Shown piece by piece: positions 16,221-34,026 of a stretch of DNA of 64,000 nt. The notes beneath the pieces are model-generated. The model saw only the letters and a list, made by a program, of their open reading frames with translations, did not search any database and was not told the origin of the DNA. Both the position numbers and the translations under genes were made by a program. Position 1 is the first letter of the stretch. The number at the start of each line of letters is the position of its first letter. The stretch is from Salipiger bermudensis HTCC2601. Its GTDB lineage: Bacteria; Pseudomonadota; Alphaproteobacteria; Rhodobacterales; Rhodobacteraceae. The stretch spans positions 1,727,687 to 1,791,686 of the forward strand of contig NZ_DS022276.1 of assembly GCF_000153725.1 (NCBI RefSeq), in the 5' to 3' direction.

Positions 16221-16249
16221 GTTAGTGCCGGGGGAGCGCCGGAGGGTTC
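16221..16249 (-). promoter_or_regulatory. ECF-type promoter P4 before the TssB-TssC fusion operon
   Basis: On the minus strand the sequence reads GAACC, 17 bases, CACTAAC. The -10-like element ends 63 bases upstream of the ATG at 16158. It matches four other sites in the window with identical spacing, including one in front of the ECF sigma gene itself. It lies just downstream of the clpV terminator, as expected for the start of a new unit. Confidence 0.72.
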
Positions 16250-16261
16250 GCGCGTTGGAAG

Positions 16262-16347
16262 AAAAAACACCCCCAAAGCCCGTCGCCGGACATGACGGGA
16301 CCGCCCCGCGCGTTACGCAGGGCGGTCTGGCAGGCGTTTGGGGGTGT
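16262..16347 (-). terminator. strong intrinsic terminator after clpV with nested stems
   Basis: An outer 11-base stem (about 16267-16277 with 16337-16347) encloses an inner 8-base stem (about 16299-16306 with 16320-16327). On the minus strand the outer stem is followed by six T residues (16262-16267). The stem begins at the clpV stop codon, so termination follows translation closely. It separates the sheath/baseplate operon from the spike/membrane operon. Confidence 0.85.
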
Positions 16348-19016
16348 CAGCCGAAGGCGTAGGTAAACTGGCTCCCCTCCACGTCGACCGAGACGTGGCC
16401 GACCTTGCCGCCCTCCATCATCCGGGTGAGGAACTCGGTCGAGATCTCGGGCAGCATGGTGTTGGTGACGATGGCGTCGATCATCCGCCCGCCACTCTCG
16501 AGCTCCTGACAGCGCGAGACGATGGTCTCGACAACTGCATCGGAATAGCTGAACGGCACGGAATAGGTGGCGGCGACTCGTTTCTCGATGCGGCCAAGCT
16601 GCAACCGGGTGATCGCGCCGATCATGTCGGGGCTGAGCGGGTAGTAGGGGATCGTCACCATCCGACCCAGAAGCGCCGCCGGGAACACCTTGAGCAGCGG
16701 CTCGCGCAGCGCCTTGGCGATGCCCTCGGGTGCCGGCATGAGCTCGGGATCGGCGCAGAGGTCCATGATCACCTCGGAGCCGACATTCGAGGTCAGCAGG
16801 ATCAGCGTGTTGCGGAAGTCGATCATCCGCCCCTCGCCATCCTCCATCATCCCCTTGTCGAAGACCTGAAAGAACATCTCGTGCACGTCCGGATGCGCCT
16901 TCTCGACCTCGTCGAGCAGCACCACCGAGTACGGCCGGCGCCGCACCGCCTCGGTCAGCACGCCGCCCTCACCGTAGCCGACATAGCCCGGAGGCGCGCC
17001 CTTGAGGCTCGAGACGGTGTGGGCCTCCTGGTACTCGCTCATGTTGATGGTGATGACGTTCTGCTCGCCGCCATAGAGGGTCTCGGCCAGCGCCAGCGCG
17101 GTCTCGGTCTTGCCGACACCCGACGTGCCGGCGAGCAGGAACACCCCCACCGGCTTCGACGGGTTGTCGAGCCCGGCACGCGAGGCCTTCACGCGCTTGG
17201 CGATCATCTCCATGGCGTGATCCTGCCCGATCACCCGGCTGGAGAGGTGCGTGGCGAGGTTGAGCACGGTGCGGATCTCGTCCTTGACCATGCGGCCTAC
17301 CGGGATGCCGGTCCAGTCGGCCACCACCGAGCCCACCGCCTGTGCATCGACGATCGGCAGCATCAGCGGCGCCTCGCCCTGTAGCGCAGCCAGTTCGGCC
17401 TGCCTGGCGTGCAGCTCGGAGAGCACCGCGTCGCGCTCTGCGCCGGCGAGCGGCGCATCGGCTTCGGCCTCGGCGGGGGCGTCGACCGGCTGGGCACCCT
17501 CGCGCAGCCGGGCGCGCAGCTCGAGGATCGCGGCCACCAGCGCCTTTTCTTCCGCCCAGCGTTCCGTGAGCTCATCCAAACGAGCGGTCTCATCGGCGAG
17601 GGCGGCACGGGCACGCACTTCGCGCTCGGCGACTTGGGCCCCGGCGCTCGCGTCGCGGGCGATGATCGCCAGCTCGGTCTCGAGCGCGTCGATGCGGCGC
17701 CGGGCATCGTCCACCGGCGCCGGCACGGCATGCAGGCTGATCGCCACGCGGGCGCAGGCGGTGTCGAGCACGCTGACCGACTTGTCGGGCAGCTGCCGCG
17801 CGGGGATGTAGCGCGCCGAGAGGCTTACCGCCGCCTCGAGCGCTTCGTCGAGGATCTGCACGCCGTGGTGCCGTTCCAGCGTCGAGGCAACACCGCGCAT
17901 CATCAACACGGCCCTGGCCGCGTCGGGCTCGGCCACCTGCACCACCTGGAAGCGGCGGGTGAGGGCCGGGTCGGTCTCGATATGCTTCTTGTATTCCGCC
18001 CACGTCGTCGCGCCGATGGTGCGCAGCGTGCCGCGCGCCAGCGCCGGCTTGAGCAGGTTGGCGGCATCGCCGGTGCCCGCGGCCCCTCCGGCGCCGACCA
18101 GCGTGTGGGTCTCGTCGACGAACATCACGATGGGCACGGGGCTGGCCTGCACCTCATCGATCACCCCGCGCAGGCGATTTTCGAACTCGCCCTTCATCGA
18201 GGCTCCGGCCTGCAGCAGGCCGACGTCGAGCGACAGCAGCCGCGCCTCGCGCAGCGCCGGGGGCACGTCGCCACGGGCGATGCGCAGGGCGAAGCCCTCG
18301 ACCACGGCGGTCTTGCCGACGCCCGCCTCGCCGGTGAGGATCGGGTTGTTCTGGCGGCGGCGCATGAGCACGTCGACGATCTGGCGGATCTCCTCGTCGC
18401 GGCCGACGATCGGATCGATCTCGCCGCTGCGGGCCTTGTCGGTCAGGTCGGTGCAGAACCGCGCGAGCGCCTCGCCGCCACCCAGCGATGCCGGCGCGCC
18501 CTCGTCGGACCGCTCCGGGGAGGGCGCTGTCGTCGCCTCCTCGGGAGAGCCGTCGAGCAGCGCGTGGAACCGTTCGGAGAGCGCCTCGGCACCGATCTTG
18601 CGGAACTCGGGCGAGATCGACTGCAACACGTTGCGCAGGCGCGGCGTCTTGACGATGCCCAGAACGAGGTGGCCGGTGCGCACCTGCGCCGCGTTGAATA
18701 GCAGCGAGGCATAGACCCAGGCGCGCTCCACCGTCTCCTCGAGATGCGGCGACAGGTCCGACACGGCGGTCGCGCCGCGCGGCAGCGCGTCGAGCGCGCG
18801 CACCAGATCGGCGGCGACGCGGCCGGGGTCAAGGTCGAACCCGTCGATCAGGCGGTGCAGGTCGCTGTCCTGCCCCTGCAGGATCTGGTGCAGCCAATGC
18901 GCCAGCTCGACATAAGGATTGCCCCGCATCTTGCAGAACACGGTGGCGCTTTCGATGCTCTGATAGGCCAGCTTGTTGAGCTTGCCGAACAGGGCCACGC
19001 GGCTGATCTCAGTCAT
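16347..19016 (-). CDS. clpV: T6SS sheath-recycling AAA+ ATPase ClpV (TssH)
   Basis: The 889-residue ClpB-like ATPase has an N-terminal double Clp-N domain (about 1-155), AAA1 with Walker A GEAGVGKT at 229-236, a middle coiled-coil (about 410-520) and AAA2 with Walker A GTSGVGKTE followed by INMSEYQE and LLDEVEKAHPDV. The N-terminal helix and the C-terminal D2 typical of TssH identify it as ClpV rather than general ClpB. It unfolds contracted TssB/TssC sheath for reuse. It is the last gene before the terminator. Confidence 0.96.
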   Translation of the reverse strand: MTEISRVALFGKLNKLAYQSIESATVFCKMRGNPYVELAHWLHQILQGQDSDLHRLIDGFDLDPGRVAADLVRALDALPRGATAVSDLSPHLEETVERAWVYASLLFNAAQVRTGHLVLGIVKTPRLRNVLQSISPEFRKIGAEALSERFHALLDGSPEEATTAPSPERSDEGAPASLGGGEALARFCTDLTDKARSGEIDPIVGRDEEIRQIVDVLMRRRQNNPILTGEAGVGKTAVVEGFALRIARGDVPPALREARLLSLDVGLLQAGASMKGEFENRLRGVIDEVQASPVPIVMFVDETHTLVGAGGAAGTGDAANLLKPALARGTLRTIGATTWAEYKKHIETDPALTRRFQVVQVAEPDAARAVLMMRGVASTLERHHGVQILDEALEAAVSLSARYIPARQLPDKSVSVLDTACARVAISLHAVPAPVDDARRRIDALETELAIIARDASAGAQVAEREVRARAALADETARLDELTERWAEEKALVAAILELRARLREGAQPVDAPAEAEADAPLAGAERDAVLSELHARQAELAALQGEAPLMLPIVDAQAVGSVVADWTGIPVGRMVKDEIRTVLNLATHLSSRVIGQDHAMEMIAKRVKASRAGLDNPSKPVGVFLLAGTSGVGKTETALALAETLYGGEQNVITINMSEYQEAHTVSSLKGAPPGYVGYGEGGVLTEAVRRRPYSVVLLDEVEKAHPDVHEMFFQVFDKGMMEDGEGRMIDFRNTLILLTSNVGSEVIMDLCADPELMPAPEGIAKALREPLLKVFPAALLGRMVTIPYYPLSPDMIGAITRLQLGRIEKRVAATYSVPFSYSDAVVETIVSRCQELESGGRMIDAIVTNTMLPEISTEFLTRMMEGGKVGHVSVDVEGSQFTYAFG

Positions 19017-19059
19017 GGGGCGGTCCTTCTTGATATCTTGCGACGTGTCGCGGCGCGGC

Positions 19060-20079
19060 TCAGGGCTGCGTCTGTTGCGGTGCGGTGAGAGAGAGGTCGT
19101 CGGCGTCGTTGGCGGGGCGCTGGCCGATCCAGCTGGTCAGGCCGAGCCGGGCGCTGCCGCCAAGCTGCGAGGGCGGCACCTCGGGCGCGCGCAGCACCAG
19201 CTTGGCCTCCCAGTCGAGCGTGTCGCCGGCATAGGTGCGGATCAGGGCCGCGAGCCGCTTGAGGCTCTGACCGCCGGGCAGCAGGCGGCGGTACTCCTCG
19301 AGCGAGAGCGGTCCGATGCGGATGCGGAACCGGGCCTCGCGCGACCAGACCTTCTCGCCGAGGCTGGCGCTCTGGCCCAGAACAGCGCCACCGAGCGTGC
19401 CGCGATCCTGCGGCTCGAGATGCAGCCACGCGCCCACGAAGCTCTCGATCTCGACCTCGGCACCAAGGAACCGGCGCAGGATCGCGGTCAGCCCGGCCTC
19501 GCTGCGCGGCGCGGCCCCGAGCAGTCCGGCAAAATGGCGCCGGGCGCTGTCGGGCATGGCATCGCGGCAGTCGAAGGCGTCCCCCGCGACCCCGGCCAGC
19601 GCGTCGAGCTTCTCGCCGAAGGGATCGTCATCGGGGCGGTCGAAGCAGGGCGCGGGCTCGGCGCTGGCCCAGGCGCGGTAGAACAGCGACAGCATGCGGT
19701 GGTGCAGCATGTCGGCAAAGCCCACCAGCGCGCCGTCGCCATTGTTGCGCTGCCGGTCGCGGGCGTATTCCGTCAGGTGCAGCGGCAGCGCCCCGTGCGG
19801 GCCGAACAGGCCAAAGGCCTGCTGGGTGAGCCGGTCGCGCCCGGTGCGCGGATCGGGGCCGAAGCCGCTGACCGTCGAACGCGGGAAGGCCAGCTCCGGC
19901 GCCTGTCCGAGGCGCACCGGATCCTGCGCCGGCCTGCGCGAGCGGCCGAGTCTCGGGCGGTCGGGATGCGCCGCCTCGATGACGCGCAGCGCCTGGAACA
20001 GGTGATGGGCCTGGGGCTGCTGCCTGAGCGCGTCGAGACGGCTCAGATCAGCATCCGGCGGCCGCTTCTCGGCATCCAT
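19060..20079 (-). CDS. tssG: T6SS baseplate protein TssG
   Basis: The 339-residue protein matches TssG (ImpH/VasB). It shows HLFQALRVIEAAHPDRPRLG, FPRSTVSGF, QQAFGLFGPHGALPLHLTEYARDR, FYRAW and the C-terminal GPLSLEEYRRLLPGG. It forms the baseplate wedge with TssF and TssE. I chose the ATG at 20079 because the family begins just before the LFQALRVIE motif; this overlaps the tssF end by 37 bases. A slightly different start is possible. Confidence 0.93.
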   Translation of the reverse strand: MDAEKRPPDADLSRLDALRQQPQAHHLFQALRVIEAAHPDRPRLGRSRRPAQDPVRLGQAPELAFPRSTVSGFGPDPRTGRDRLTQQAFGLFGPHGALPLHLTEYARDRQRNNGDGALVGFADMLHHRMLSLFYRAWASAEPAPCFDRPDDDPFGEKLDALAGVAGDAFDCRDAMPDSARRHFAGLLGAAPRSEAGLTAILRRFLGAEVEIESFVGAWLHLEPQDRGTLGGAVLGQSASLGEKVWSREARFRIRIGPLSLEEYRRLLPGGQSLKRLAALIRTYAGDTLDWEAKLVLRAPEVPPSQLGGSARLGLTSWIGQRPANDADDLSLTAPQQTQP

Positions 20080-21917
20080 CGCGCGATCTCTCCCCGTTGC
20101 TGTGAGTGAATGACGGTCTCGGTGAAGCTGTTGAGCGAGACGTACTTGGCGAAGAACGCCTCGAGCACCGCGCCCAGCAGGTAGCATCCGGTGCCCTCGA
20201 AGAAGCTCTCGTCAAAGCCCACCCGCAACTCGAGCCCGCGCACCGCGGTCGACAGCACGCCATCGGCCATGCGCCGCACGATGGGTCGCGAGGCGACCGA
20301 GACCAGCCCCTCCATTTGGGCCGCCATCGACGGATCGCCGAGCGGCGCGTAAAGCCCCACGAGCTCGCGCAGGGCGGCGGCGCCCGTGCCGCGATCGGCG
20401 TCGGCGATGGACAGGTAGTTGAGGCTCAGGTGGCTGATCAGCTGCCACGCGCGCTGCCCCTCGGCGAGGCTCTGGCGCGGACGGGTCGGCGGCACGATGG
20501 CGCGGATCTCGGTCACCGGGCCGCCGTCGGGCAGGAAGAAATCGGTGCTGCCCGCGCCGATCGGCGTCAGAAGCGGCAGGTCGCGGTTGGTACACAGAGC
20601 GGTGACCGCCAGCTGCTCGATGCGTCCCGGGTAGGGGGCCTGCGACCGGTCGGCGAGCGAGAGGTAGAGATCGCTGCCGAGATACGAGGTGCGCTGGCCC
20701 TTCAGCCGCTGCTTCTCGGAGCGCTGCCGCATGCGGCGGCGGATGCTGTAATAGGCGTTCTGCTGGTCTCCGAAGGGGGTGAAATCCTCGGCGCTGTAGA
20801 ACGGTCGGAAGGGCACGTCGTCGGCATCGTCGCCGGCGATCCCGGTGACGCTGTCGAGGCGGTAGATCTCGTAGTCGAGCGGCGCGGTGCGGTCGGGAAT
20901 GACGTGGTGGTCGATCTCGCGGCCCGAGACCGGCACCCGGTCGCAGCGCTTGGGAAAGAGGTTGATCGCCGGCACCGCATGCAGATCGAAGCTCGCCGGC
21001 GTGATCGATTTCAGCGCCGGGTTGCCCTCGGCGAGCAGGATGTAGAGATCGAGATCGTTGCCCTCGGCGCGTTGCACCGCCGGGCGCAGACCACAGAGGT
21101 CGATGAAGAAGAAGCGCTGCGGCATGGCGAAATATTCCTGCAGCAGCCGGTAGCCCTCGAAGGACTGTCCGGGCACCGGCAGCAGCGCCTCTTTGGGATC
21201 GAAACCGCGGGGAATGATGTCGCACCCGAGCGGCACCGACCAGTCGGCACGACGGTCGGTGGAACGCCCGGCCAGCGCCACGCCCTGACCGAGGATCGCC
21301 TCGTAGAGCCGCCACGGTTCGGCCCCGGTGCCCGAGAGGAATAGCGTGAGCCGGTCGAGCGGCAGCGCCGAGATCGGCGCCCCACCGCTGCGTGCCAGCC
21401 GCAGGCGCAACGCCGCCTTGGCCTGATTGCCGGTGCCCAGACCCGCCGCAACCAGCTCGGAGCGGCCGTCAACATACTCGGCCTGGGTGATCTCCAGCGG
21501 CCAGAGGGTCGTGTCCTGCGCGGTGGTGAAGCGGCAGGCAGTCTGCTCGCCCTCGAGCACCTGTCCGCGCATCTGCGTGCCACGCGGCAGGGTGAAGCCC
21601 TCGGCAAGCCCGCCCTGCGCGGTGTCGGGTTGCAGCCGTGCCACCATCATCGACGGCGTCGGCGCGAGGAAATGCGGGTAGACGATCTCGAGCAGGTTCT
21701 GGGTGAAGGCCGGGTACTGCTGCTCGAGCTCGAGCTGCACCCGCGCGGCCATGAAGGCGCTGCCCTCGAGCAGCCGCTCGACATAAGGATCCATGACCTC
21801 GAGCTGGTCCATACCGAGCCGCGAGGCGATCTTGGGATAGGCCTCGGCGAACTCGGCACCCATCTCGCGGAGATAGCCGAGTTCGGCCTCGTAATGGCGC
21901 AGAAGGCGGGAATCCAT
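20043..21917 (-). CDS. tssF: T6SS baseplate protein TssF
   Basis: The 624-residue protein has the TssF (ImpG/VasA) start MDSRLLRHYEAELGYLREMGAEFA, then YPKIASRLGM, DPYVERLLEGSAFMAARVQLELE and IVYPHFLAPTPSMMV. It is of standard length and forms the baseplate wedge with TssG. It begins 5 bases after the tssE stop. Confidence 0.96.
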   Translation of the reverse strand: MDSRLLRHYEAELGYLREMGAEFAEAYPKIASRLGMDQLEVMDPYVERLLEGSAFMAARVQLELEQQYPAFTQNLLEIVYPHFLAPTPSMMVARLQPDTAQGGLAEGFTLPRGTQMRGQVLEGEQTACRFTTAQDTTLWPLEITQAEYVDGRSELVAAGLGTGNQAKAALRLRLARSGGAPISALPLDRLTLFLSGTGAEPWRLYEAILGQGVALAGRSTDRRADWSVPLGCDIIPRGFDPKEALLPVPGQSFEGYRLLQEYFAMPQRFFFIDLCGLRPAVQRAEGNDLDLYILLAEGNPALKSITPASFDLHAVPAINLFPKRCDRVPVSGREIDHHVIPDRTAPLDYEIYRLDSVTGIAGDDADDVPFRPFYSAEDFTPFGDQQNAYYSIRRRMRQRSEKQRLKGQRTSYLGSDLYLSLADRSQAPYPGRIEQLAVTALCTNRDLPLLTPIGAGSTDFFLPDGGPVTEIRAIVPPTRPRQSLAEGQRAWQLISHLSLNYLSIADADRGTGAAALRELVGLYAPLGDPSMAAQMEGLVSVASRPIVRRMADGVLSTAVRGLELRVGFDESFFEGTGCYLLGAVLEAFFAKYVSLNSFTETVIHSQQRGEIARWMPRSGRRMLI

Positions 21918-21922
21918 GTGCG

Positions 21923-22420
21923 TTACCCCTGCCGGCTGACGAAGACTTCACCGGTCGACATGTCGAGCGCGGTGCGCAGGTAGAGATCGACCGGCAGCGG
22001 CTCGGCCCAGAGCTCTCCGCGGATGTCGAACGAGACGATGGCGCCGGAGTTCGCGCGTTCCTGCCGCACGACGATCTCGAGGCTCTGGGGCAGGATGCGC
22101 GGCTCGAAGCGCTCGATGGCGCCGCGGATCGCCTGGCGCAGCGCCTCGGCACGGCGGCGGGTCTCGCTGCGGCCCGAGACGGCGGGCAGCCCGTAGTTCA
22201 GCACCGATCCGGCGACATGCGGGAACGCCTCGAGATCGTGCTCGGCCTCGAGATTGGCGCAGTTCAGCAGCCAGGCGAGATCGCGCTGGATGATCTGGCG
22301 CAGGCGGCTGACGTCGATCACCCGCGTCGAGGCGGTGTCGGTGGCGCGGTCCGGCGCCTCGTCGGTGAGCCGGTCGAGCAGCGAGGGCTGCAGGCGTTCG
22401 GCCAGCATGCGGTCAGCCAT
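21923..22420 (-). CDS. tssE: T6SS baseplate gp25-like protein TssE
   Basis: The 165-residue protein belongs to the GPW/gp25 lysozyme-like family (LLDRLTDE, RVIDVSRLRQIIQRDLAWLLNC, SVLNYGLP, IERFEPRIL, DIRGELWAEPLPVDLYLRTALD). It nucleates sheath polymerisation on the baseplate. The ATG at 22420 lies inside the tagJ stop region (8-base overlap, ATGGCTGA) with a GAGG motif upstream. The longer frame beginning 10 residues earlier has no such site. Confidence 0.94.
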   Translation of the reverse strand: MADRMLAERLQPSLLDRLTDEAPDRATDTASTRVIDVSRLRQIIQRDLAWLLNCANLEAEHDLEAFPHVAGSVLNYGLPAVSGRSETRRRAEALRQAIRGAIERFEPRILPQSLEIVVRQERANSGAIVSFDIRGELWAEPLPVDLYLRTALDMSTGEVFVSRQG

Positions 22421-23249
22421 GGCGGGCCTCGTCGCTCTGCGAGACCTCAAGGGTGGCCGGGGCCGGACCGATGGTCAGCTCGCGCAAATCCATGAGGGCA
22501 CACTCGCCGGTGTCGGTGGCCAGAAGGCGCTGGCCGAGGCCACCGAGCACGCGGTCGCCCTCCATCTGCCAGCCGGTGGCGGCGGAGAGCCTGTGGCGCG
22601 GGTCGGGGCTGGTGGCCGAGCCGGGGTAGCGGGTGGGGATCAGGGCGAGATCGCTGCCGCCGTTGCCCCACTGCACGGTGGCGGGCATCCAGACCCGGTC
22701 GCGCAGGTCGGCGGGCTGCTCGAGGGTGATGCGGTGGATGGCCGAAAACGGGGCCCAGTAGTAGCGCCCGTTGACGATCAGCTCGCAGACCGGGCCGAGC
22801 CGCGGATCGGCATCGGCGATCCAGCCGAAGGGCGCACCGTCGAGCGTGCCGGGCAGGGCGGGGGCAGCCTCGAAGGCGCGGCCGCGCAGCTCCTCGGCGG
22901 CGGCGTATTCCTTGTGGGCGTGCAGCTTCAGCGCCTCGATCAGCGCGGCGATCCAGTCGTCGGGCTCGCCCAGCACCATCGGCGCGCGCTGGCCGGCGAA
23001 GACCTCTTCGCGCTGGCGCTCGCAGATGATCGCGGCGCGGTACATCTGCGCCATTGTGCCGGCCTTGGGATCGAGCGTGGCGGCGGTGCGCAGTTGCTGG
23101 ATGGCGCGGGGCCAGTCGCCCTGCACGCAGAGCAGCTGGAAGAGGAACACGCGCAGGCGTGCCTCCTGCGGGGCGTCGCGGACCGCCTCGCTGAGCGCCG
23201 CCAGCGCGGCATCGGGGTCGCCGTCTCTGAGAAGCGTTTCGGCACGCAT
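22413..23249 (-). CDS. tagJ: T6SS accessory protein TagJ (ImpE)
   Basis: The 278-residue ImpE-type protein has TPR-like N-terminal helices (MRAETLLRDGDPDAALAALSEAVRDAP) and a C-terminal SciE-type domain (GWIADADPRLGPVCELIVNGRYYWAPFSAI, DRVWMPATVQW, IPTRYPGS). TagJ binds TssB N-termini in some systems and is thought to help ClpV act on sheath. A hairpin separates it from hcp upstream. Confidence 0.92.
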   Translation of the reverse strand: MRAETLLRDGDPDAALAALSEAVRDAPQEARLRVFLFQLLCVQGDWPRAIQQLRTAATLDPKAGTMAQMYRAAIICERQREEVFAGQRAPMVLGEPDDWIAALIEALKLHAHKEYAAAEELRGRAFEAAPALPGTLDGAPFGWIADADPRLGPVCELIVNGRYYWAPFSAIHRITLEQPADLRDRVWMPATVQWGNGGSDLALIPTRYPGSATSPDPRHRLSAATGWQMEGDRVLGGLGQRLLATDTGECALMDLRELTIGPAPATLEVSQSDEARHG

Positions 23250-23292
23250 GAAAGAACCTTTCGGGCAGGAGGGGGCGGTGGGGAGATGGGAT

Positions 23293-23320
23293 CGTCCGGG
23301 CGCAGCACCGCGCCCGGACG
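23293..23320 (-). other. hairpin downstream of hcp
   Basis: A perfect 10-base stem (23293-23302 with 23311-23320) has an 8-base loop and lies between the hcp stop and the tagJ start. No T-run follows on the minus strand. It is therefore more likely an attenuator or a 3-prime stabiliser of an abundant hcp message than a full terminator. Confidence 0.55.
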
Positions 23321-23329
23321 GTGGAGGGC

Positions 23330-23863
23330 TCAGACGATATAGTCGGCCTTGTTCTTGACCTGGCTGAACTTGGTCTCGCCCTGGTCGCCGGAGGCCTTGG
23401 AGAGCTTGCCGGTCTTGTCCTGCTTGTAATACTCGACCTTGATTGCGCCGTAGTTGAAGATGACGGTCTCGTTGCAGTTGTCGTCGCCGTCCGAGCCTTC
23501 CCAGGTCATGTCCTTGACCATGACGAGCTTGAAGTGGAACTTCATGAAGGTGGAACCCGAGGCGCTGGCGCTGCCGCCGGAGCGGCGCAGCTCGATGATG
23601 GCCTCGTCGAAATGGGTGCCGTTGCACAGCGTGCTGAACAGGCCGCAGGAGGCGGTGTCGGTCGATTTTGCGACCTCGAAGTCCTTGAACCAGGCCTTGC
23701 CCGCGCCGCCGCCGCCGGTGGCCGAGCCGATGTTGATGTTGTTCTCGGCACCGAAGTTGAACGAGACGATCTCGAAGGCCTTCTTTGCGGCCATCGCCTC
23801 GTCGTGGGTTTCGCCCTGCACCCGGGACTGGCCGGGGAAGTACATGTAAGCGTCGAACGCCAT
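23330..23863 (-). CDS. hcp: T6SS tube protein Hcp (TssD)
   Basis: The 177-residue Hcp1-family protein begins MAFDAYMYFPG and contains QGETHDEAMAAKKAFEIVSFNFG, AKSTDTASCGLFSTLCNGTHF, FHFKLVMVKDM and YGAIKVEYYKQD. It forms the hexameric tube rings inside the sheath. It is the only hcp in the window and sits between two hairpins, which suggests separate control of its mRNA amount. Confidence 0.96.
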   Translation of the reverse strand: MAFDAYMYFPGQSRVQGETHDEAMAAKKAFEIVSFNFGAENNINIGSATGGGGAGKAWFKDFEVAKSTDTASCGLFSTLCNGTHFDEAIIELRRSGGSASASGSTFMKFHFKLVMVKDMTWEGSDGDDNCNETVIFNYGAIKVEYYKQDKTGKLSKASGDQGETKFSQVKNKADYIV

Positions 23864-25500: not shown

Positions 25501-25503
25501 GGC

Positions 25504-26040: not shown

Positions 26041-26070
26041 ATGAGTGCCCGCGCAAACCGGAAAGGTTCA
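26041..26070 (-). promoter_or_regulatory. ECF-type promoter P3 before tssB
   Basis: The minus strand reads TGAACC, 17 bases, CACTCAT, with the -10-like element ending 28 bases before the tssB ATG. The -10 differs by two bases from the CACTAAC form. It lies in the only intergenic gap between tssA and tssB and would give the sheath, hcp and baseplate operon its own start. Confidence 0.65.
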
Positions 26071-26082: not shown

Positions 26083-27138
26083 TTAATCTTCGTCTTCGTC
26101 CTCGAGCCCGCCGATCAGCGCGACGTTCTCCACGCCGAGCGGGGCCATGTCCTTCATGATCGCGAGGAAATCCGCCGAGACGAGCCGGCGCGCGCGGGTC
26201 AGCAGCAGCGGCACGGGGCTCGAGGGTTCGGTGCGTGCGTAGTAGTCGATGATCCGGTCGATGGCGCGTTTCACATCCTCGGGCGAGGCGATGGCGCCGG
26301 ACGCGCTTGCCATTGGCGCGACCCGAGGCGCGGGGGCGGTCGGGGCGGTATCGAAAGCCTCGCCGATCTCCATCTCCGGGATCTCCTCGCCCGCGTCGTC
26401 CGCCGGCGGGGCCACATGCTCCGAGAAGCGCCGGACAATTTCGCGCAAGACACGCTCGAGGGGCTCGAGGTCCGGCCCGTCGCTGCCGATATGGCCGTCG
26501 AAGGCGGCAGAGATGGCGCGCACGTGCCCGAGACTGGTCTCGGCCGCCTCGGCGCGGGCGGCGAGTGCTGCGGCGTCGCTGTCCATGAAGGCCGCGGCGA
26601 TGGTCTGCGGGGTCGGCACCTCGCCCTCGCCGGGTGCCGGCAGCTCGCCCTCGGCGATCTTCACGTCGCGCAGAGAGACCTGCCCGAAGGCGCGGCTCTC
26701 GGCCAGGGGCGCGGCGCGCAGGGCGGCCAGAACCGTGGCGCGGTCGGTGAGCCCAAGCACCGCGTTGACCCGCATCGTGGGGTCGTCGTCATCCTCGGCG
26801 TCGAGCTGCGGGTGCACGCTGTCCCAGTGGTCCTCGAGCCCGTTGCGGATGTAGCCCAGCACCGTCTCGAAGCCTGTGAGCCCTTCGGTGCGCAGCGTGG
26901 CATTGGCAAGGATCACCGCCACCCGCAGGTCGCGACTGCGGCCCAGAAGCGTGGTCGCGGCGCGGGCGACCTCGGCAAAGTCCGGGTCTTCGGCGGGGAT
27001 CACCGCATCGCCGATGACGCGTTCCTCGCCCGGCGCGTTGGCCAGTTCCAGGGCGGTGAACTCGGGGTCGTATTCGAGATCCGGGCCGCTCGGCGCGTCG
27101 GCGTCGAGGGCGGCGAGGCAGGGATCGAGATCAAGCAT
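26083..27138 (-). CDS. tssA: T6SS cap/baseplate protein TssA
   Basis: The 351-residue protein carries the ImpA N-terminal domain: GPDLEYDPEFTALE, GDAVIPAEDPDFAEVARAATTLLGRSRDLRVAVILANATLRTEGLTGF, and HWDSVHPQLDAEDDDDPTMRVNAVLGL. The C-terminal region has ASPEDVKRAIDRIIDYYARTEPSSPVPLLLTRARRLV. TssA starts sheath assembly at the membrane complex. It follows the kinase gene by 23 bases and ends before the tssB promoter. Confidence 0.94.
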   Translation of the reverse strand: MLDLDPCLAALDADAPSGPDLEYDPEFTALELANAPGEERVIGDAVIPAEDPDFAEVARAATTLLGRSRDLRVAVILANATLRTEGLTGFETVLGYIRNGLEDHWDSVHPQLDAEDDDDPTMRVNAVLGLTDRATVLAALRAAPLAESRAFGQVSLRDVKIAEGELPAPGEGEVPTPQTIAAAFMDSDAAALAARAEAAETSLGHVRAISAAFDGHIGSDGPDLEPLERVLREIVRRFSEHVAPPADDAGEEIPEMEIGEAFDTAPTAPAPRVAPMASASGAIASPEDVKRAIDRIIDYYARTEPSSPVPLLLTRARRLVSADFLAIMKDMAPLGVENVALIGGLEDEDED

Positions 27139-27161: not shown

Positions 27162-28499
27162 TCAGGTCAGGGCGGCGCGCAGGAAGAGCGCGCGCTCGTC
27201 GGGGTCGGAGATCGCCTCGGAGAGCGTCTGCGCCAGCGCCTCGAGGCTTGCGGCCTTGCGGGCGCTCTTGCGCACCAGCACCGGGGCGATGGGGCCGAGA
27301 TGCGGCTTCAGCAGATCGGTGAGGCGGGTGAGCGCGGCGTCGGGAAGGCCCGGTGCGGTGCCGAGTCCCGTGGCGTCCTGCGACAGCGCGCTTTCGATGG
27401 CGCGTCGCAGGGTCATGCGTTCGGCCTCGTCTTCGAACTCGGCCAGAACGGCGGCAATGAGCTGTTCCGTGGTCGCGGCCTTGGCGGCGGCGCGGCGGGC
27501 GATCACCCGGCCCATCGGGCCGAGGCTGCCGGTGAGGTGCTGCTCGAGCCGCGCCAGCGTGCCGCCGCTCATCCGGGTGAGCATGGTTTCGGTCAGCGTG
27601 GCGTCGGGGGCGCGCGCGCTGGGCGCGGCCTCGATCAGGCCGGTGCGGTCGGCGGCGGGCAGGATTGCCGCCAGCGCCGCGCGCATGCCCTCGGCGCTGG
27701 CATAGCGCTTTTCCGGATCGACATGCATCGCGGTCATCACCACGTGGTCGACCTCGGCGGGCAGGCTCTCGACGATCTCGCCGGGGCGCGGTGCCTGGCC
27801 GCTGCGCACCGCCGCGAACAGCGCCTCGACGCCGCCGCCCTTGTAGGGCTTGCGCCCGGTCAGCAGCTCGTAAAGCACCACGCCGCAGGCATAGATGTCG
27901 GCGCGGGCATCGACCTCGGCGCCGCTCAGCTGCTCGGGCGCCATGTAGGAGGGCGTGCCGATCATACCGGCGCTGGTGGCCTCCATCGCGGTCAGGCGGG
28001 CGATGCCGAAATCGGTGAGCTTCACGGTGCCGTCATCGGTCAGCATGACGTTGGCGGGCTTGAGATCGCGGTGCACGATCCCGGCGGCGTGGATGCCCGA
28101 GAGACCGGCGAGGATCTGGGCAAAGATCGCGTGGATCTCCTCGAGCGGCAGGCGCGTGCCCTCGGTCAGCCGATCCTCGAGGGTCACCGAGCGCACCCGC
28201 TCCATCACCAGGTAGGGCAGGCCGTCCTGCTGCAGGAAGTCGAACACGGTGACGAGGTTGGCGTGCTGCACCCGGCCCGCGGCGCGGGCCTCGCGGCCGA
28301 AGCGGTCGAGCCAGTCCTGGCTGCCCTCGCTGCCGATCAGGTGCTGGTGGATGGTCTTGATGGCGACGGGGCGGTCGATGTCCGGATCCTGCCCGGCATA
28401 GACCACGCCCATGGCGCCCTCGCCCAGCACCCCGTCGATGCGGTACTTGCCGACCATGCGGCGCCCGCCGCCGGGCACGATGACGGTCGCATCAGACAT
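27162..28499 (-). CDS. soluble Ser/Thr protein kinase (PpkA-like) of the T6SS
   Basis: The 445-residue protein has a Hanks kinase domain (about 16-285) with glycine loop GEGAMGVVY (26-34), catalytic lysine K48 in VAIK, HRDLKPANV (143-151) and DFG (163-165). There is no membrane span, unlike classical PpkA. The C-terminus contains two similar copies of an about 54-residue helical unit (315-368 and 390-443; both have LGP, V-x2-R-x-A-x-KAA and ER). The gene overlaps the preceding heme-sensor gene by 8 bases, so the two may form one signalling pair. Likely target: the FHA protein TagH. Confidence 0.93.
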   Translation of the reverse strand: MSDATVIVPGGGRRMVGKYRIDGVLGEGAMGVVYAGQDPDIDRPVAIKTIHQHLIGSEGSQDWLDRFGREARAAGRVQHANLVTVFDFLQQDGLPYLVMERVRSVTLEDRLTEGTRLPLEEIHAIFAQILAGLSGIHAAGIVHRDLKPANVMLTDDGTVKLTDFGIARLTAMEATSAGMIGTPSYMAPEQLSGAEVDARADIYACGVVLYELLTGRKPYKGGGVEALFAAVRSGQAPRPGEIVESLPAEVDHVVMTAMHVDPEKRYASAEGMRAALAAILPAADRTGLIEAAPSARAPDATLTETMLTRMSGGTLARLEQHLTGSLGPMGRVIARRAAAKAATTEQLIAAVLAEFEDEAERMTLRRAIESALSQDATGLGTAPGLPDAALTRLTDLLKPHLGPIAPVLVRKSARKAASLEALAQTLSEAISDPDERALFLRAALT

Positions 28500-29364
28500 C
28501 GATCATGCTCATCGCGCGTTCGAGGCTGCGGCGCATCCGGTTGAACGAGACCGAGAGCGAGCTGATCTCGTCGCGGCCCGGCTTCTTGTACTCCTCGACC
28601 GAGAAATCGCCCATGCTGACCTTCTCGGCGACCTCGGACATGCGCCGCACCGGGCGCAGCACGATCCGTCCGAGCATCAGGTTGGTGAGAACGAAGACCA
28701 GCAGAAACACCCCGGCGAGGCCCACGATCAGGATGATCCCGGTCTCGAGCGCGCGCTTGTCGGCGATCGACATCGGCGCCGAGATGATCTGCGCGCCCAC
28801 GGTCTCGCCCAGCTCCCAGCCGAAGCCGTGATCGGGGCCGTAGAGATCGACCATGGCGGGCGGCGCGGCCTCGGGGGTCGAATGGCAGCGCAGGCAGCCC
28901 TCCTGGTAGATGGTCAGCGGGAAGGCCACGGTGAGGAAGCGCCCGTCCTCGCGGTCGACCACGGTCGAGAGCTGCTCGAGCGAGGGATCGGCGCGGAACT
29001 GGTCGATCAGGTCCTTCTCGAGCGGCGTCGGCAGGTCGGCGGGGTTGGTCGGATCGAGCGCGGCTTCCTTGTAGCTGAACTCGGGGAAGTGCTCCTGCAC
29101 GTTGGCAAAGACCGAGCGCGCCGCGAAGGAGGTGACGGTCTCGGGCAGGAACAGGATGTCGTTGTCGTCCGAGAGCAGCGGGTCGATATTGGTGAGCGTG
29201 TAGGAGCGCACCGCCAGCGCGTTGGCACGCAGCAGCCGGATGGAGTCCTCGATCTCGTCCACCGCCGAGTCCTGCACGAAGCGGTAGGAAAGGCCGGCGG
29301 CGGCACCGATGCCGATGATACAGGCCAGAAGCAGGACGATGTTGTATTTGAAACGCAGGCCCAT
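28492..29364 (-). CDS. membrane heme-c sensor (Tll0287/DUF3365-like) with HAMP domain
   Basis: The 290-residue protein has a membrane span (about 8-28), a periplasmic domain (about 30-205), a second span (about 208-231) and a HAMP domain (about 232-285). The periplasmic part contains EGCLRCHS, a CxxCH heme-c attachment motif at 157-161, plus PLYGPDHGFGWELG-like and SAPMSIADKRA segments of the Tll0287-like sensor fold. No kinase or cyclase output is attached; the next gene, overlapping by 8 bases, is a soluble Ser/Thr kinase that may act as its output. Plausible inputs are redox state, NO or CO. Confidence 0.85.
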   Translation of the reverse strand: MGLRFKYNIVLLLACIIGIGAAAGLSYRFVQDSAVDEIEDSIRLLRANALAVRSYTLTNIDPLLSDDNDILFLPETVTSFAARSVFANVQEHFPEFSYKEAALDPTNPADLPTPLEKDLIDQFRADPSLEQLSTVVDREDGRFLTVAFPLTIYQEGCLRCHSTPEAAPPAMVDLYGPDHGFGWELGETVGAQIISAPMSIADKRALETGIILIVGLAGVFLLVFVLTNLMLGRIVLRPVRRMSEVAEKVSMGDFSVEEYKKPGRDEISSLSVSFNRMRRSLERAMSMIDV

Positions 29365-29433: not shown

Positions 29434-30435
29434 TCAGGAACTGAGGTCGAGAAGCTGGCGGCGGTTGAGCACGCCGGTGGTGTCTTCGGAGCGGCTCTGC
29501 TGGAACGCGGTGATCGCCTCGCGGGTCTGCGGGCCGAAGATCCCGTCCACGAGGCCACGGTAGAAGCCCTCGGCGCGCAGCTCGCGCTGGATGGTGCGCT
29601 TGGCCGAGCGCGAGAGCGACTGCTCGAGGATGCGCAGCTCCTCGACGGTCTCGGCGGGGGCCTGGGGTTCGGGCGTCGCCGCGATCACCGGTGCGGGCTG
29701 CGACGCGGGGGCCGGGGCGGGTACAGCGGCGGCTTCGGGTGTTTCGGGCTCCGGTGCCGGCTCTGGCTCAGGGGCGGCGCGCAGCAGGATGCGGTTCGAG
29801 GGCAGGTCGGACAGCGTCACGCCGTCCTTGGTGAACATGCCGCGCAGGATGGTGCCGAGATCGACCTCCTCCTGCCTGGCGGCGTCTTCGAGCACCGTCA
29901 GCACCGGACCGAATGCGCCGATCTCGGCCACCACCACGGCCCCTGCGCCGGGGACCGCATCGGGCGCGCGCACGACCTTGCTGATGCCGCCCGGAAGGCC
30001 CGTGGGCGGGGCGGTCACGGTCAGCACCACGGCGCCGCCCTGCTCGGAGAGCGCAGCGGAGCGGGCGAAGGCCAGCGTCGGAATCGCCTGGGTGAAGAGG
30101 TCGGTCGAGCGGGCCAGCGTGGCCTCGGCAGGCAGCACGTAGTCGCGCCCCTCGAAGGTCACCGCGGGCGCGTCGAGATAGACGAAGGTGGCGCGGGAAT
30201 CCTCGGCCTCTCGGGCGAAGCGCTGCAGGATCGAGCGCAGTTCGGCATTGTTGGGATCGGCGGCGCGCAGGGTCTCGGCGCCCATCAGCTGGAGCTGGGT
30301 CTGCACCGCGTCGGCCCGGGCCCCGCCATCGCCCACGGAGACCACGAGAGCGACGGTGCGGTCGCTGCCCTGCGCGTGTAGCGGCAGGGCGGTGATCATC
30401 AGGCTCAGGATCGTCAGAACTGCGCGGGCAAACAT
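29434..30435 (-). CDS. secreted degenerate caspase-like protein with peptidoglycan-binding domain
   Basis: The 333-residue protein has a signal peptide (1-22, ending LHAQ) and an N-terminal domain with the layout of bacterial caspase-like (C14) proteins. It begins RTVALVVSVGDG. The segment YLDAPAVTFEGRDYVLP (86-102) occupies the place of the usual YYAGHGVQVDGRNYLIP, so the catalytic histidine is lost. No DACR-type cysteine follows either. A Pro/Ala-rich linker (about 228-270) leads to a PG_binding_1 domain (about 280-331, EGFYRGLVDGIFGPQTREAI). It is probably a cell-wall-tethered pseudo-enzyme acting as sensor or scaffold. It starts its own ECF-type unit. Confidence 0.75.
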   Translation of the reverse strand: MFARAVLTILSLMITALPLHAQGSDRTVALVVSVGDGGARADAVQTQLQLMGAETLRAADPNNAELRSILQRFAREAEDSRATFVYLDAPAVTFEGRDYVLPAEATLARSTDLFTQAIPTLAFARSAALSEQGGAVVLTVTAPPTGLPGGISKVVRAPDAVPGAGAVVVAEIGAFGPVLTVLEDAARQEEVDLGTILRGMFTKDGVTLSDLPSNRILLRAAPEPEPAPEPETPEAAAVPAPAPASQPAPVIAATPEPQAPAETVEELRILEQSLSRSAKRTIQRELRAEGFYRGLVDGIFGPQTREAITAFQQSRSEDTTGVLNRRQLLDLSS

Positions 30436-30507: not shown

Positions 30508-30546
30508 TCTCTGCTCCGGTCATCCCGTAGGTGCCCGGAGCAGAGA
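30508..30546. repeat. 12-base perfect inverted repeat around the P2 promoter -10 element
   Basis: Arms 30508-30519 and 30535-30546 are perfectly complementary and leave a 15-base loop that contains the -10-like element of promoter P2. It could be an operator for a dimeric regulator, or an end-of-message hairpin for the protease operon that stops at 30593. It has no T-run. Confidence 0.6.
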
Positions 30547-30556
30547 GCGAGGTTCA
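30527..30556 (-). promoter_or_regulatory. ECF-type promoter P2 before the caspase-like/sensor/kinase/tssA operon
   Basis: The minus strand reads TGAACC, 17 bases, CACCTAC, 92 bases upstream of the ATG at 30435. Its spacing is identical to the sites before the ECF gene, tssB, the TssB-TssC fusion and the gene at 33580-33942. Confidence 0.72.
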
Positions 30557-30592
30557 TTTCATGGGGAAATTATTTCGCCGAGGCGGCGCGGC

Positions 30593-31762
30593 TCAGTCGT
30601 GACAGGCCGGGGCAGAGGCCTCGACCGCGCGCAGCGCCTCGCAGGCGTCGACCATCGGCACATCGCCATGCATTACCACCGCGCCATGCAGGGCGTGGGC
30701 GATGTCGGGGGCGGCGAGGTCGTGGTGCCGGGCGCGCAGAAGCGCCACGACGCCGCTCACATGGGCGGCGGCGACGGAAGAGCCGGAGACGTAGCGGTAA
30801 TCGTTATGCGGGGCGGCGCTGATCACGTCGACCGCCGGGGCGGGGATCTGCCGCTCGGTGCCGTGCCCTGCGGCGATCACCCCCGGCAGCGAGGCGGGGA
30901 AGGTGGGCTCGGGGCTCTCGCCCCAGGCGGCCACGACGATCATCCCGGCAGCCTCCGCCGCCTCGACCAGCTCCTGCAAGAGCGGGTCCGGCGGGCCGCC
31001 GAGGCTCATGTTCAGCACGTGCACGTCGTTGAGGATGGCGAAGTTCAGCGCCCGCGCCAGCGAGAAACTGTTGCAGCGACCGCCCATCCCCTGCGGCTGC
31101 CAGCAGGCGCGCAACCCGATCAACTGCGCCTGCGGAGCGACGCCGATCATGCCGATCTCGTTGTCGGCATCGGCGGCGATGATGCCGGCAATGGCGGTGC
31201 CATGCGGCTCGGCGGCGCTTCCCTGCGCATTGCCGACGAAATCGCGCAGGTCGGCGAGCCGGTTCGCAAGGTCCGGGTGATCGCTGTCGATGGCGCTGTC
31301 GATGACGCCGACGCGCACCCCCGCGCCGGTGCTGAGCCGGTGGGCCGCAGCGGCGTTGATCTGTTTGAGCGCGCTCTGCATCGGCAGCAGCGGGTCGCGG
31401 TAGAGCACCTCGAACACCTGGAAGTCGTTCATCCGCTGCACCGTGCGGATCTGCGCATCGGCCTGCATCCGGGCGATCAGAGCATCGAGATCCGGCGTGC
31501 CGGCGGTGTCGACCACGAGGCAATGCACGGACAGAGATTGCAACGGCCATTCGGCGGTAAGGGTGACGTCGAAGCGCGCCTCGATCTCGGCGGCGACGGC
31601 GCTCAGCGCGTCGGGCTCCGCCAGCGGCACGGTGAGGATGAGGTGGGTCTGCGTGGCGATGCCATCGGCCGGAACCAGCCGCCAGGGCGGCGCCTGCTGC
31701 GCCCGCAAGGGGGTGGCAAGCAGGAGCGTGGCGAGGAGAAGCGAGACGATGACACGCAGCAT
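30593..31762 (-). CDS. secreted subtilisin-like (S8) serine protease
   Basis: The 389-residue protein has a signal peptide (1-21), an N-terminal prodomain-like region (about 35-120) and an S8 domain. The triad is visible: D155 in VGVIDSAID, H187 in PHGTAIAG, S329 in SGSSVAAAHVSG. The position of the usual oxyanion asparagine (AAGN) reads AAWGE, which could lower or alter activity. The start ATG lies 5 bases after the anti-sigma stop and the gene is in the ECF operon. It could degrade the anti-sigma outer domain or process the downstream secreted proteins; this is inference. Confidence 0.88.
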   Translation of the reverse strand: MLRVIVSLLLATLLLATPLRAQQAPPWRLVPADGIATQTHLILTVPLAEPDALSAVAAEIEARFDVTLTAEWPLQSLSVHCLVVDTAGTPDLDALIARMQADAQIRTVQRMNDFQVFEVLYRDPLLPMQSALKQINAAAAHRLSTGAGVRVGVIDSAIDSDHPDLANRLADLRDFVGNAQGSAAEPHGTAIAGIIAADADNEIGMIGVAPQAQLIGLRACWQPQGMGGRCNSFSLARALNFAILNDVHVLNMSLGGPPDPLLQELVEAAEAAGMIVVAAWGESPEPTFPASLPGVIAAGHGTERQIPAPAVDVISAAPHNDYRYVSGSSVAAAHVSGVVALLRARHHDLAAPDIAHALHGAVVMHGDVPMVDACEALRAVEASAPACHD

Positions 31763-31767
31763 GGGGA

Positions 31768-32391
31768 TCACTCGTTGGGGGCGGCGAACAGGACCTCGGA
31801 GGTGGCCATCAGCGCCTGCGCGGCGGTTGCGAGATCGGCTTCCGGGGCGGCGGCGGCGGTGTAGACGCCGGTCTCGGAGGGGCCATCGAGCAGCGTCAGA
31901 CCATGCGCGGCGAGCAGCTGCGTCAGGTCGTCCTCGGCCAGATCGCTGGCAAGCTGGAACTTGACCGCATGGTCGGCATCGGCGCCGCTTGTCAGGGTCT
32001 GGTAGTCGTCGCCGACCGGCTGGAACAGGATCACCGCGAGCAGCACGCAGGCGGCGACGCCAAGCCCTCCGAGCGCGTAGCCCCCGCGCAGACCGGCGAA
32101 CCAGCCCTTGGACTGCGGCACCGGCGCGCGCGCCGCCGCCTCGGCGTCGATCTGGGCGCGCAGCTTTTCCCAACTGCGGTCGACGGGGGCTTCAGAAGGG
32201 TCGACGGTGGCGACCTGCTGGGCGAGGTCGTGCTGTCGGGCGACTTCGGCGGCGAATTGCGGAGAGACACGGGCCTGGTGTCTGACCAGCTCTGCCTCGT
32301 CCTCGGGCAGGCTGCCGTTGACGTACCACGGGATCAGCTCCCAAGCGGTCTCGTAGGCGTCTGACCTCGGGATGTGGTTGGAATCATGCAA
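31768..32391 (-). CDS. membrane anti-sigma factor
   Basis: The 207-residue protein has a cytoplasmic anti-sigma-like part (ETAWELIPWYVNGSLPEDEAELVRHQ, about 14-39, without zinc-binding Cys), one membrane span (about 104-124) and a periplasmic domain (about 130-207). The periplasmic part (DLTQLLAAHGLTLLDGPSETGVYTA, ALMATSEVLFAAP) resembles protease prodomains that read as a beta-alpha-beta-beta unit. It overlaps the ECF gene by 8 bases, the usual arrangement for a cognate pair, and precedes the protease. Confidence 0.88.
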   Translation of the reverse strand: MHDSNHIPRSDAYETAWELIPWYVNGSLPEDEAELVRHQARVSPQFAAEVARQHDLAQQVATVDPSEAPVDRSWEKLRAQIDAEAAARAPVPQSKGWFAGLRGGYALGGLGVAACVLLAVILFQPVGDDYQTLTSGADADHAVKFQLASDLAEDDLTQLLAAHGLTLLDGPSETGVYTAAAAPEADLATAAQALMATSEVLFAAPNE

Positions 32392-32983: not shown

Positions 32984-33012
32984 GCCAAATCATCGCTTTG
33001 CTGTCTGCGGTG

Positions 33013-33042
33013 ATAGGTGCCCCGACGATTGAAAATGGTTCA
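33013..33042 (-). promoter_or_regulatory. ECF-type promoter P1 before the sigma gene (autoregulatory)
   Basis: The minus strand reads TGAACC, 17 bases, CACCTAT. The -10-like element ends 30 bases before the ATG at 32983, an ordinary promoter-to-start distance. It is the reference site for the shared motif. Confidence 0.75.
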
Positions 33043-33513
33043 TCGGATCAACAGAAATTTTGGGCACCCGGAAACCGGAGTGGAAATGTGCATCCGGACG
33101 AGACCTGCCCGGGCCGCGATGGCATCGCTTCGCGCGCCGCTCGGGCGGTCCACCGCGAAGGTGAAAGATGAGCGCCGTCACAGCCCCGGCGTGGCGGGAT
33201 CGCGTCTGGCCTGGCGATCCACCCGCGCTTTCGCGGAGCTGGTCAGAGACTTCATCTTCCGGTTGATGCCGCGCCGCCGAGGTGAGACGCCGGTTCGGTC
33301 TTGAGCGCAAGTTCTAAGTGGCTCGTTTATATACATACATCATTCGCCTCTCACGAAGCGTTGTCGCCACCGTTGTAATCGCCGTTGTAATCGACGCGAT
33401 ATTCGATTTTTTCGAAAATCAATCCGTGGTTGCGGCTTGATTGCCTGAAAAGCAGGCGGTTTGAGAACAAAGGCCGTGTCCCGAAGCGAAATGCGCCTCC
33501 GGGCGCAGAGCGC
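33043..33513. other. gene-free stretch with an AT-rich island and a 12-base tandem repeat
   Basis: No convincing gene is present; short open frames here lack family patterns and ribosome binding sites. The part at 33305-33420 is clearly richer in A/T than the surroundings. It contains a perfect tandem duplication of a 12-base unit (33370-33381 and 33382-33393, core cgttgtaatcg) followed by a short inverted repeat gatttt/aaaatc at 33405-33420. A regulatory or transferred remnant is possible. Confidence 0.5.
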
Positions 33514-33549
33514 AAAACGGCCCGGCAGCCTCTTGGGCGACCGGGCCGT
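33514..33549 (-). terminator. intrinsic terminator after the small secreted protein gene
   Basis: A 9-base stem (33517-33525 with 33541-33549) is followed on the minus strand by TTTT. It lies 31 bases downstream of the stop of the gene at 33580-33942. Confidence 0.8.
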
Positions 33550-33579
33550 GCGCGGGGAGCATGGGGACAGGTGAACGGC

Positions 33580-33942
33580 TTACTTGAGCACGTGCCAGAC
33601 GCCGCCGACGCCGTCGCCATTGACGTCGCCCGGTGCGCTGTCGCCGGCCCAGTAGTACAGCGGCATACCCTTGAACGCCCACTGCTCGGCACCGTCCTTG
33701 CGGGTCACGAGGCTGAAGTTGCCCTCGGCGCTGGCGCCCGACTTGGCGACGAACGGCGGCCAGCTTGCGGCGCAGCCGTCGTAGCAGTTGCTGGTGCCCG
33801 GCGCGTCCTTGTCGAAGATGTAGAGGGTCATGCCCTCGCCATCGACGAGAACGCCGCCGCCGGACATGCCGGCCGGGGCCGCGATGGCGGTGGTTGCGGC
33901 GACGGACAGGGCGGCGCCGGCGATCAGGGTGAGAAGTTTCAT
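33580..33942 (-). CDS. small secreted protein with YxFxxD motif (lipoprotein_15-like)
   Basis: The 120-residue protein has a signal peptide (1-21, ending AIA) and the pattern of the COG4315/PF03640 family: LYIFDKDAPGTSNCYDGCAASWPPF and LYYWAGDSAPGDVNGDGVGGVWHV. The signal has no lipobox cysteine, so it is probably soluble in the periplasm or secreted. Family members are linked to stress but have no firm function. It has its own terminator and an ECF-type promoter of the T6SS motif, so it is a likely member of that regulon and not part of the apparatus. Confidence 0.87.
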   Translation of the reverse strand: MKLLTLIAGAALSVAATTAIAAPAGMSGGGVLVDGEGMTLYIFDKDAPGTSNCYDGCAASWPPFVAKSGASAEGNFSLVTRKDGAEQWAFKGMPLYYWAGDSAPGDVNGDGVGGVWHVLK

Positions 33943-33996
33943 GCAAAGGTCTCCTGTGGTGGTGTCTGGCCCAGACCATCTCGTTCTGGATACCGG

Positions 33997-34026
33997 GTTA
34001 GTGCCGGTGCCCCACCACAGGGTTCA
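33997..34026 (-). promoter_or_regulatory. ECF-type promoter P5 before the small secreted protein gene
   Basis: The minus strand reads TGAACC, 17 bases, CACTAAC, 55 bases upstream of the ATG at 33942. Both elements are identical to P4 (CACTAAC) with the same spacing. Confidence 0.75.

Follow-up and report, generated by a model that had tools for sequence, protein, structure and literature searches.

A type VI secretion locus of Salipiger bermudensis probably switched by its own ECF sigma factor through shared promoters

Does an extracytoplasmic function (ECF) sigma factor encoded beside the genes of a type VI secretion system (T6SS) control that machine? The question is raised by a 64,000-nucleotide stretch of the Salipiger bermudensis HTCC2601 genome (GCF_000153725.1, contig NZ_DS022276.1, positions 1,727,687 to 1,791,686; hereafter the window), which contains matches for the whole T6SS core (tssA to tssM, hcp, vgrG, PAAR, and clpV) together with genes for an ECF factor, a membrane anti-sigma factor, and a secreted subtilase (Table 1). 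The ECF gene product has sigma-70 regions 2 and 4 (PF04542, 1.9e-11; PF08281, 1.8e-15). As judged from sequence, the locus is very probably a self-contained switch for one T6SS, run by the ECF factor acting on shared promoters.

An earlier note on this DNA had described five copies of one ECF-type promoter, GAACC-N17-CACNNAY. All five are present at the places given, on the minus strand and with a 17-base spacer, and they are the sole matches in the window, whereas shuffled windows contained 0.12 matches on average and at most 1 (none of 100 shuffles reached 5). Each site precedes a start codon, and the distances from the site end, 29 bases for the ECF gene, 91 for the operon then called caspase-like, 27 for tssB, 62 for the TssB-TssC fusion gene, and 54 for the gene of a small secreted protein, are one base shorter at both ends of the range than the 28–92 bases given before.

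Within the genus, 2 of 20 genomes, the host counted, contain the ECF gene, and 149 sampled genomes of the family yielded no close ECF relative, the best other hit having 38% identity (E 1.7e-29). Sixteen ECF loci (designated by L and a number) came from a scan of species genomes: one in Salipiger bermudensis at 96% identity, thirteen at 68–89% in Sulfitobacter, Rhizobium, Loktanella (two copies), Tateyamaria, Roseobacter, Roseivivax, Cohaesibacter, Albimonas, and one metagenome-assembled genome, and two outlying loci, namely a gammaproteobacterial one at 44% (L076) and a Rhodovulum one matching in pieces (L077). The order ECF factor, anti-sigma factor, subtilase, 333-residue protein, HAMP protein, kinase, TssA, TssB, and TssC recurs in 11 of these 16 loci (L062, L064, L065, L067–L073, and L075). 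Before the ECF gene, GAACC stands at a fixed distance from the AC box in all 14 loci L062–L075, all of at least 68% identity; in some of them GGAC, AAAC, or GAAC replaces GCAC, and L066 and L069 deviate at the final NAY. This conservation supports the proposal, already made in the earlier note, that the ECF factor recognizes the promoter of its own gene. The second ECF copy of Loktanella sp. D2R18 (L066:10001-10597, 72%) has the same promoter; its locus lacks an anti-sigma match and has an FHA match close to its end. In Rhodovulum kholense (L077), anti-sigma and subtilase matches accompany the partial ECF match, the genome has zero matches to the promoter pattern GAACCTT-N16-ACYNAY, and no close TssB-TssC fusion was found.

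A matrix trained solely on the pre-ECF promoters of the 14 related loci, with the window sequence left out, ranked the five window sites first (29.1, 26.9, 18.9, 17.8, and 15.5), and the sixth-ranked site scored 3.3, a gap of 12 units. In 60 Markov sequences, hits at 15.5 or more averaged 0.017, with a highest score of 23.5. In the genome scan that had been proposed as a check, the loose pattern occurred 11 times in the host genome versus 8 times when reversed, and counting it alone is non-specific and proves nothing. Eight of the 11 loose matches carry the tighter box GCACYNAY, namely the five window sites and three others (L012, L013, and L014), with a start codon 27–96 bases downstream; the remaining three (L002–L004) lack it. 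When the spacer before the GCACYNAY box was allowed to vary from 15 to 18 bases, 18 matches were found versus 12 reversed; those with 17-base spacing were the same eight, and ten were spread across the three other spacings. Admitting GGAC or GAAC into the tighter pattern added nothing to the sites of the host genome: the 4 matches (versus 1 reversed) were all ones already known. Across the whole genomes of 14 relatives, GAACCTT-N16-ACYNAY matched 46 times versus 9 reversed, and with a spacer one base longer 10 times versus 18 reversed. The assignment of these 46 matches to genes is partial, with L123, L125, and L128 outside it; the L160 match precedes a reading frame, and those in L163 and L164 stay below a matrix score of 13. 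The DNA upstream of the five window sites is AT-rich (mean 0.56 versus 0.31 for the whole window, intergenic DNA not being the standard of comparison), and L014 is alike, with only 0.17 each at L012 and L013.

Across related loci, the sites stand at the heads of gene sets. The matrix was applied (score at least 12) to the 260 bases before genes of 13 loci; L066, whose neighbors are missing, was excluded. Sites were found before the 333-residue protein gene in 3/11, the HAMP protein gene in 4/11, tssB in 3/11, Lipoprotein_15 genes in 3/3, and M15-type peptidase genes in 5/7 cases, and before the ECF gene in 13/13, which is the training set. By contrast, six classes of internal gene had no site in 65 cases: anti-sigma factor 0/13, subtilase 0/13, kinase 0/11, TssA 0/11, ImpE 0/9, and TssE 0/8. 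Of 11 loci with a long homologue of the TssB-TssC fusion, 9 had a site scoring at least 12 just before the frame and one scored 8.9; in one fusion locus, the site (21.2) sits before the gene upstream of the fusion. The promoters before the 333-residue protein gene and before tssB are not universal; in other lineages, they occur before the HAMP gene or inside tssB, and both of the 2/11 sites upstream of tssC lie within tssB.

The motif goes with the ECF gene. TssB at E 1e-20 or better was found in 35 of the 149 family genomes, the host counted. The scan covered 30 loci, one from the host and 29 from the remaining 34 genomes; TssB identity is 70–84% in 21 of these 29 ECF-less tssB loci and 48–56% in the rest. 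No promoter was found at the 29 loci, where the maximum score was 12.4, about 380 bases beyond the tssB match, versus 29.1 in the host; nor was one found at the second T6SS of the host itself (tssB locus G000:C6:3005270-3005743, best score −4.9). What the sequences show is the sites themselves, how they are conserved, and that they accompany the ECF gene; together these findings strongly support the view, advanced in the earlier note as a promoter linking the sigma factor to all T6SS units, that this T6SS is under the control of the ECF factor of its locus. A TssB tree was built from 37 rows, four of 41 loci being unreadable; in it, a branch with a Shimodaira–Hasegawa-like approximate likelihood ratio (SH-aLRT) support of 89, short of the program's mark of 95, separates the 12 ECF-linked rows from the others. 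Because these rows group together despite coming from four families (Rhizobiaceae, Cohaesibacteraceae, Roseobacteraceae, and Paracoccaceae), the tree suggests that the ECF-linked T6SS arose once and was then transferred.

A copy of the motif also lies inside tssB. GAACC-N17-CAC(C/T)TAC occurs in 9 of 12 ECF-linked tssB genes, within the codons of ARTxLxNLxTY and 100–126 bases before tssC. It requires the rare codon CGA for Arg, which those 9 of 12 have. The stretch was read in 21 of the 29 ECF-less loci, and none of these has CGA there (nor does any of 23 under a looser reading). Among the other Arg codons of these tssB genes, CGA accounts for 6 of 91 (Fisher 3.7e-7; between groups 5.7e-6), and its share in open frames of at least 250 residues, spurious frames included, is 4–23%. 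At one TssB position, the 12 ECF-linked proteins without exception carry Thr, Ser, or Gly, and this makes the CAC of the internal site possible; Met stands there in 18 of the 21 ECF-less ones. The window, L062, and L064 lack the CGA; these and L075 are the loci with a strong promoter before tssB, and L075 has both. The codon comparison speaks against a coding coincidence, but the tssB codon rows are related, the Fisher test does not correct for their kinship, and the tree needs just three changes. The internal site is likely a real promoter.

Sites of the same form also lie before genes outside the machine. The three further host sites precede an M15-peptidase-like 310-residue gene just left of the window (L012), an RGS-like 205-residue gene (L013), and a 35-residue frame (L014:5446-5553) about 500 kb from the host T6SS, which has its own sigma promoter and is conserved with it in S. 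bermudensis (L154). M15-type peptidases lie repeatedly under the motif and exceed the Pfam cut-off in L065, L068, L071, L072, L073, L156, and L158, and the host copy falls below it (18 versus 25 bits). Lipoprotein_15 proteins lie under it in L062, L063, and L065, and a PAAR protein (L153) and an RTX-repeat protein (L074) once each. Diverse helical proteins also recur under the promoter (L013:4419-5036, L068:8988-9647, L162:1537-2445, and others). Among 12 aligned members, 5 matched the RGS family PF00615 at E 0.05 or better and one exceeded the cut-off (L162, 30.5 versus 23.9 bits), the host's own member being below it; all 15 PDB profile matches listed for the set were RGS or axin (best E 0.0015, two below 0.01). 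The structure model of one RGS-like protein of the set is unusable (predicted local distance difference test score, pLDDT, 42), and the RGS assignment rests on profiles only. In Cohaesibacter (L148, G174:C34:44000-53500), two further sites, some 42–47 kb from the ECF gene, stand before genes for a cytochrome b561 and a GTP cyclohydrolase II-like protein, and in the SP161 genome a cupredoxin-like exported protein (L149:2567-2911) lies under a sigma site adjoining a gene of the helical set.

Table 1. Features of the window, with positions counted from its first base
Feature	Positions	Strand	Evidence
ECF sigma factor, 199 residues	32384..32983	-	Pfam sigma-70 r2 and r4; orthologue alignment
Membrane anti-sigma factor: anti-sigma helices, one transmembrane helix, subtilisin-prodomain-like periplasmic domain	31768..32391	-	
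Secreted subtilase (S8), 389 residues, triad motifs present	30593..31762	-	Pfam Peptidase_S8 2.4e-32
333-residue protein, peptidoglycan-binding domain ("caspase-like" in the earlier note)	29434..30435	-	
Tll0287-like and HAMP membrane protein, CxxCH motif	28492..29364	-	
Ser/Thr protein kinase	27162..28499	-	
TssA (ImpA_N)	26083..27138	-	
TssB small sheath subunit	25504..26013	-	
TssC large sheath subunit	23989..25500	-	
Hcp	23330..23863	-	
ImpE-like open frame, true start probably further in	22413..23627	-	
TssE, TssF, TssG, ClpV	16347..22450	-	
TssB-TssC fusion sheath protein, TssCL kind	14128..16158	-	Published kind, PMC9515649
VgrG, DUF6931, PAAR, FHA, TssJ, TssK, TssL, TssM	2605..13826	-	
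PP2C-type phosphatase, end of T6SS gene set	1185..2564	-	
Small secreted protein, Lipoprotein_15 repeats	33580..33942	-	
Putative ECF-type promoter, sigma gene (autoregulation)	33013..33041	-	Matrix score 26.9; same site in 14/14 orthologues
Putative ECF-type promoter, caspase-like/HAMP/kinase/TssA genes	30527..30555	-	Matrix score 18.9; at 333-residue gene in 3/11 related loci
Putative ECF-type promoter, tssB	26041..26069	-	Matrix score 29.1; 3/11 related loci
Putative ECF-type promoter, TssB-TssC fusion (TssCL) operon	16221..16249	-	Matrix score 15.5; 9/11 related loci score at least 12
Putative ECF-type promoter, small secreted Lipoprotein_15 protein	33997..34025	-	Matrix score 17.8; 3/3 related loci

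The caspase label of the 333-residue protein was not borne out, Pfam and NCBIfam giving peptidoglycan-binding and related models only. The CxxCH motif of the Tll0287-like/HAMP protein in the T6SS operon is of a heme-binding-like kind, and the protein is a possible redox sensor. A relative of the TssB-TssC fusion (L151:588-3596) is longer than the window copy and combines two VipA stretches with a VipB domain, but no VipB_2.

Control of a T6SS by the EcfK/PknS pair of Xanthomonas citri was reportedly described by Bayer-Santos in 2018, a study known to us through citing papers. According to those papers (PMC8103513, PMC8999054, and PMC13147305), EcfK is an ECF factor in the T6SS region that controls the T6SS and is activated by a kinase. 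The statement in the earlier note that a T6SS under a dedicated ECF factor of the same locus is rarely described is fair, but this arrangement has a published precedent. Both systems have an ECF factor in the T6SS region and a Ser/Thr kinase gene nearby. EcfK, however, is an ECF43 factor activated by phosphorylation, whereas here the acidic residues of sigma2.2 are kept and a membrane anti-sigma factor and a secreted subtilase adjoin the sigma gene. In the K1-T6SS of Pseudomonas putida, cell-surface signaling ECF and anti-sigma genes likewise adjoin a T6SS, but overproduction of the sigma factor left T6SS expression unchanged (PMC9993120). An ECF gene beside a T6SS therefore need not control it, and the promoter evidence matters for this reason. 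The Roseobacter T6SS1 has the same kind of TssB-TssC fusion, already published as TssCL, with impE, PAAR, and FHA genes (PMC9515649); the ECF-linked T6SS forms a separate TssB branch in our tree, and the main text of that paper contains no word beginning with "sigma." Literature searches (titles and abstract openings, among the matches listed) revealed no ECF-controlled T6SS in Rhodobacterales or Rhizobiales, no prodomain-bearing anti-sigma factor, and no RGS proteins tied to T6SS.

Canonical ECF systems with ZAS membrane anti-sigma factors provide the general mechanism with which the locus can be compared. The anti-sigma factor is like theirs in its N-terminal anti-sigma domain (nearest solved fold, RslA/SigL), one membrane helix, and periplasmic domain; it differs in having a periplasmic domain that is like a subtilisin prodomain, and its own gene is followed by that of a subtilase. 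The protein as a whole resembles a ZAS-type domain joined to a subtilisin-prodomain-like domain. Ten of 15 family members match PF13490 (zf-HC2) at E 0.01; the window copy does not and has lost the Cys ligands of HxxxCxxC. In the resting state, the anti-sigma factor would hold the sigma factor at the membrane. The order of the genes and the periplasmic domain suggest activation by subtilase proteolysis: the secreted subtilase may dock on the prodomain-like domain and cut it, a step on which our judgment is close to evenly divided, after which intramembrane and cytoplasmic proteases would free the sigma factor. The free factor would direct RNA polymerase to promoters of the form TGAACCTTT...GCACYNAY, the GAACC-N17-CACNNAY of the earlier note. 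Its predicted targets in the window are (i) the ECF, anti-sigma, and subtilase genes; (ii) the accessory, kinase, and TssA genes; (iii) tssB to clpV; (iv) the TssB-TssC fusion to TssM; and (v) the small secreted protein, and outside it are the M15-peptidase-like protein, the RGS-like protein, and the 35-residue microprotein. Positive autoregulation would steepen the response.

How the sigma factor is released, and whether it is the one that reads the motif, can be explained in other ways. The motif could be read by another sigma factor, with the ECF gene nearby by chance, and four further ECF-like matches exist in the host genome at E 0.001; the motif goes with the ECF gene, however, in all 14 orthologues and at none of the 29 ECF-less tssB loci, and we regard this explanation as very improbable indeed. 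The sigma factor could instead control the T6SS but be activated through phosphorylation by the kinase of the locus, as in EcfK/PknS, the anti-sigma factor being a minor brake. In favor of this, 11 of 16 related loci retain the kinase gene, which lies some 4 kb away from the sigma gene, and the DxxD-like motif in the window copy of the sigma factor begins with Ser. That Ser is Ala in 10 of 15 aligned orthologues and Val or Ile in two, whereas E60 and E61 of sigma2.2 are invariant in all 15 and the motif contains no Thr; in ECF43 factors, the acidic DxxD motif is typically replaced and a Thr phosphorylated, with exceptions reported (PMC13147305). A ZAS-type anti-sigma gene also adjoins the sigma gene, and kinase activation is given low weight as quite unlikely. 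The kinase, together with the FHA and PP2C proteins of the gene set, is more likely to act on T6SS firing after translation than on the sigma factor. Such post-translational control by a kinase, FHA, and PP2C proteins is of the Pseudomonas type.

The role of the subtilase is more evenly contested. It could be a regulon product, an accessory of the T6SS or the envelope, with the prodomain-like part serving as a generic sensor domain of ferredoxin-like fold for some other ligand. Two observations favor this reading: unrelated ferredoxin-like folds score near the prodomains, and a profile comparison found no relation between the periplasmic domain and the subtilase's own N-terminal region. In Pfam, that N-terminal region gave only two chance-level matches (one member each). 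On the other hand, the first six fold matches of the periplasmic domain are all subtilase-type prodomains, and PF22148 (fervidolysin prodomain-like) matches 8 of 14 such domains at E 0.1, the window copy scoring 21.5 bits as an isolated domain (cut-off 21.0) and 19.0 bits, below the cut-off, as a whole protein. The anti-sigma gene is followed by the subtilase gene in 15 of 16 loci, including the gammaproteobacterial one, whose 20 kb of examined sequence yielded no T6SS gene. The sensor-domain reading is plausible, though we incline somewhat against it. Cleavage of the prodomain-like domain by the subtilase could also belong to a wider scheme, in which a captured subtilisin prodomain on the anti-sigma factor is read and cleaved by the subtilase to free the sigma factor, and the same sigma factor drives production of RGS-fold proteins, which the T6SS injects into eukaryotic predators to dampen their G-protein signaling; we consider this scheme as a whole unlikely.

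According to PMC9515649, neither the T6SSs of the squid-gland symbionts examined there nor those of reference roseobacter genomes had been given a function in earlier work. A dedicated sigma factor offers a handle on such a system, since loss of one anti-sigma gene should switch the whole T6SS on, and its promoter marks scattered genes, otherwise hard to find, as probable T6SS parts or cargo. If the internal tssB promoter is real, a sigma promoter would have shaped a coding sequence and left its trace at the level of codons. If the prodomain step is true, a secreted protease would be coupled to transcription in a way not found among the matches listed in our literature searches.

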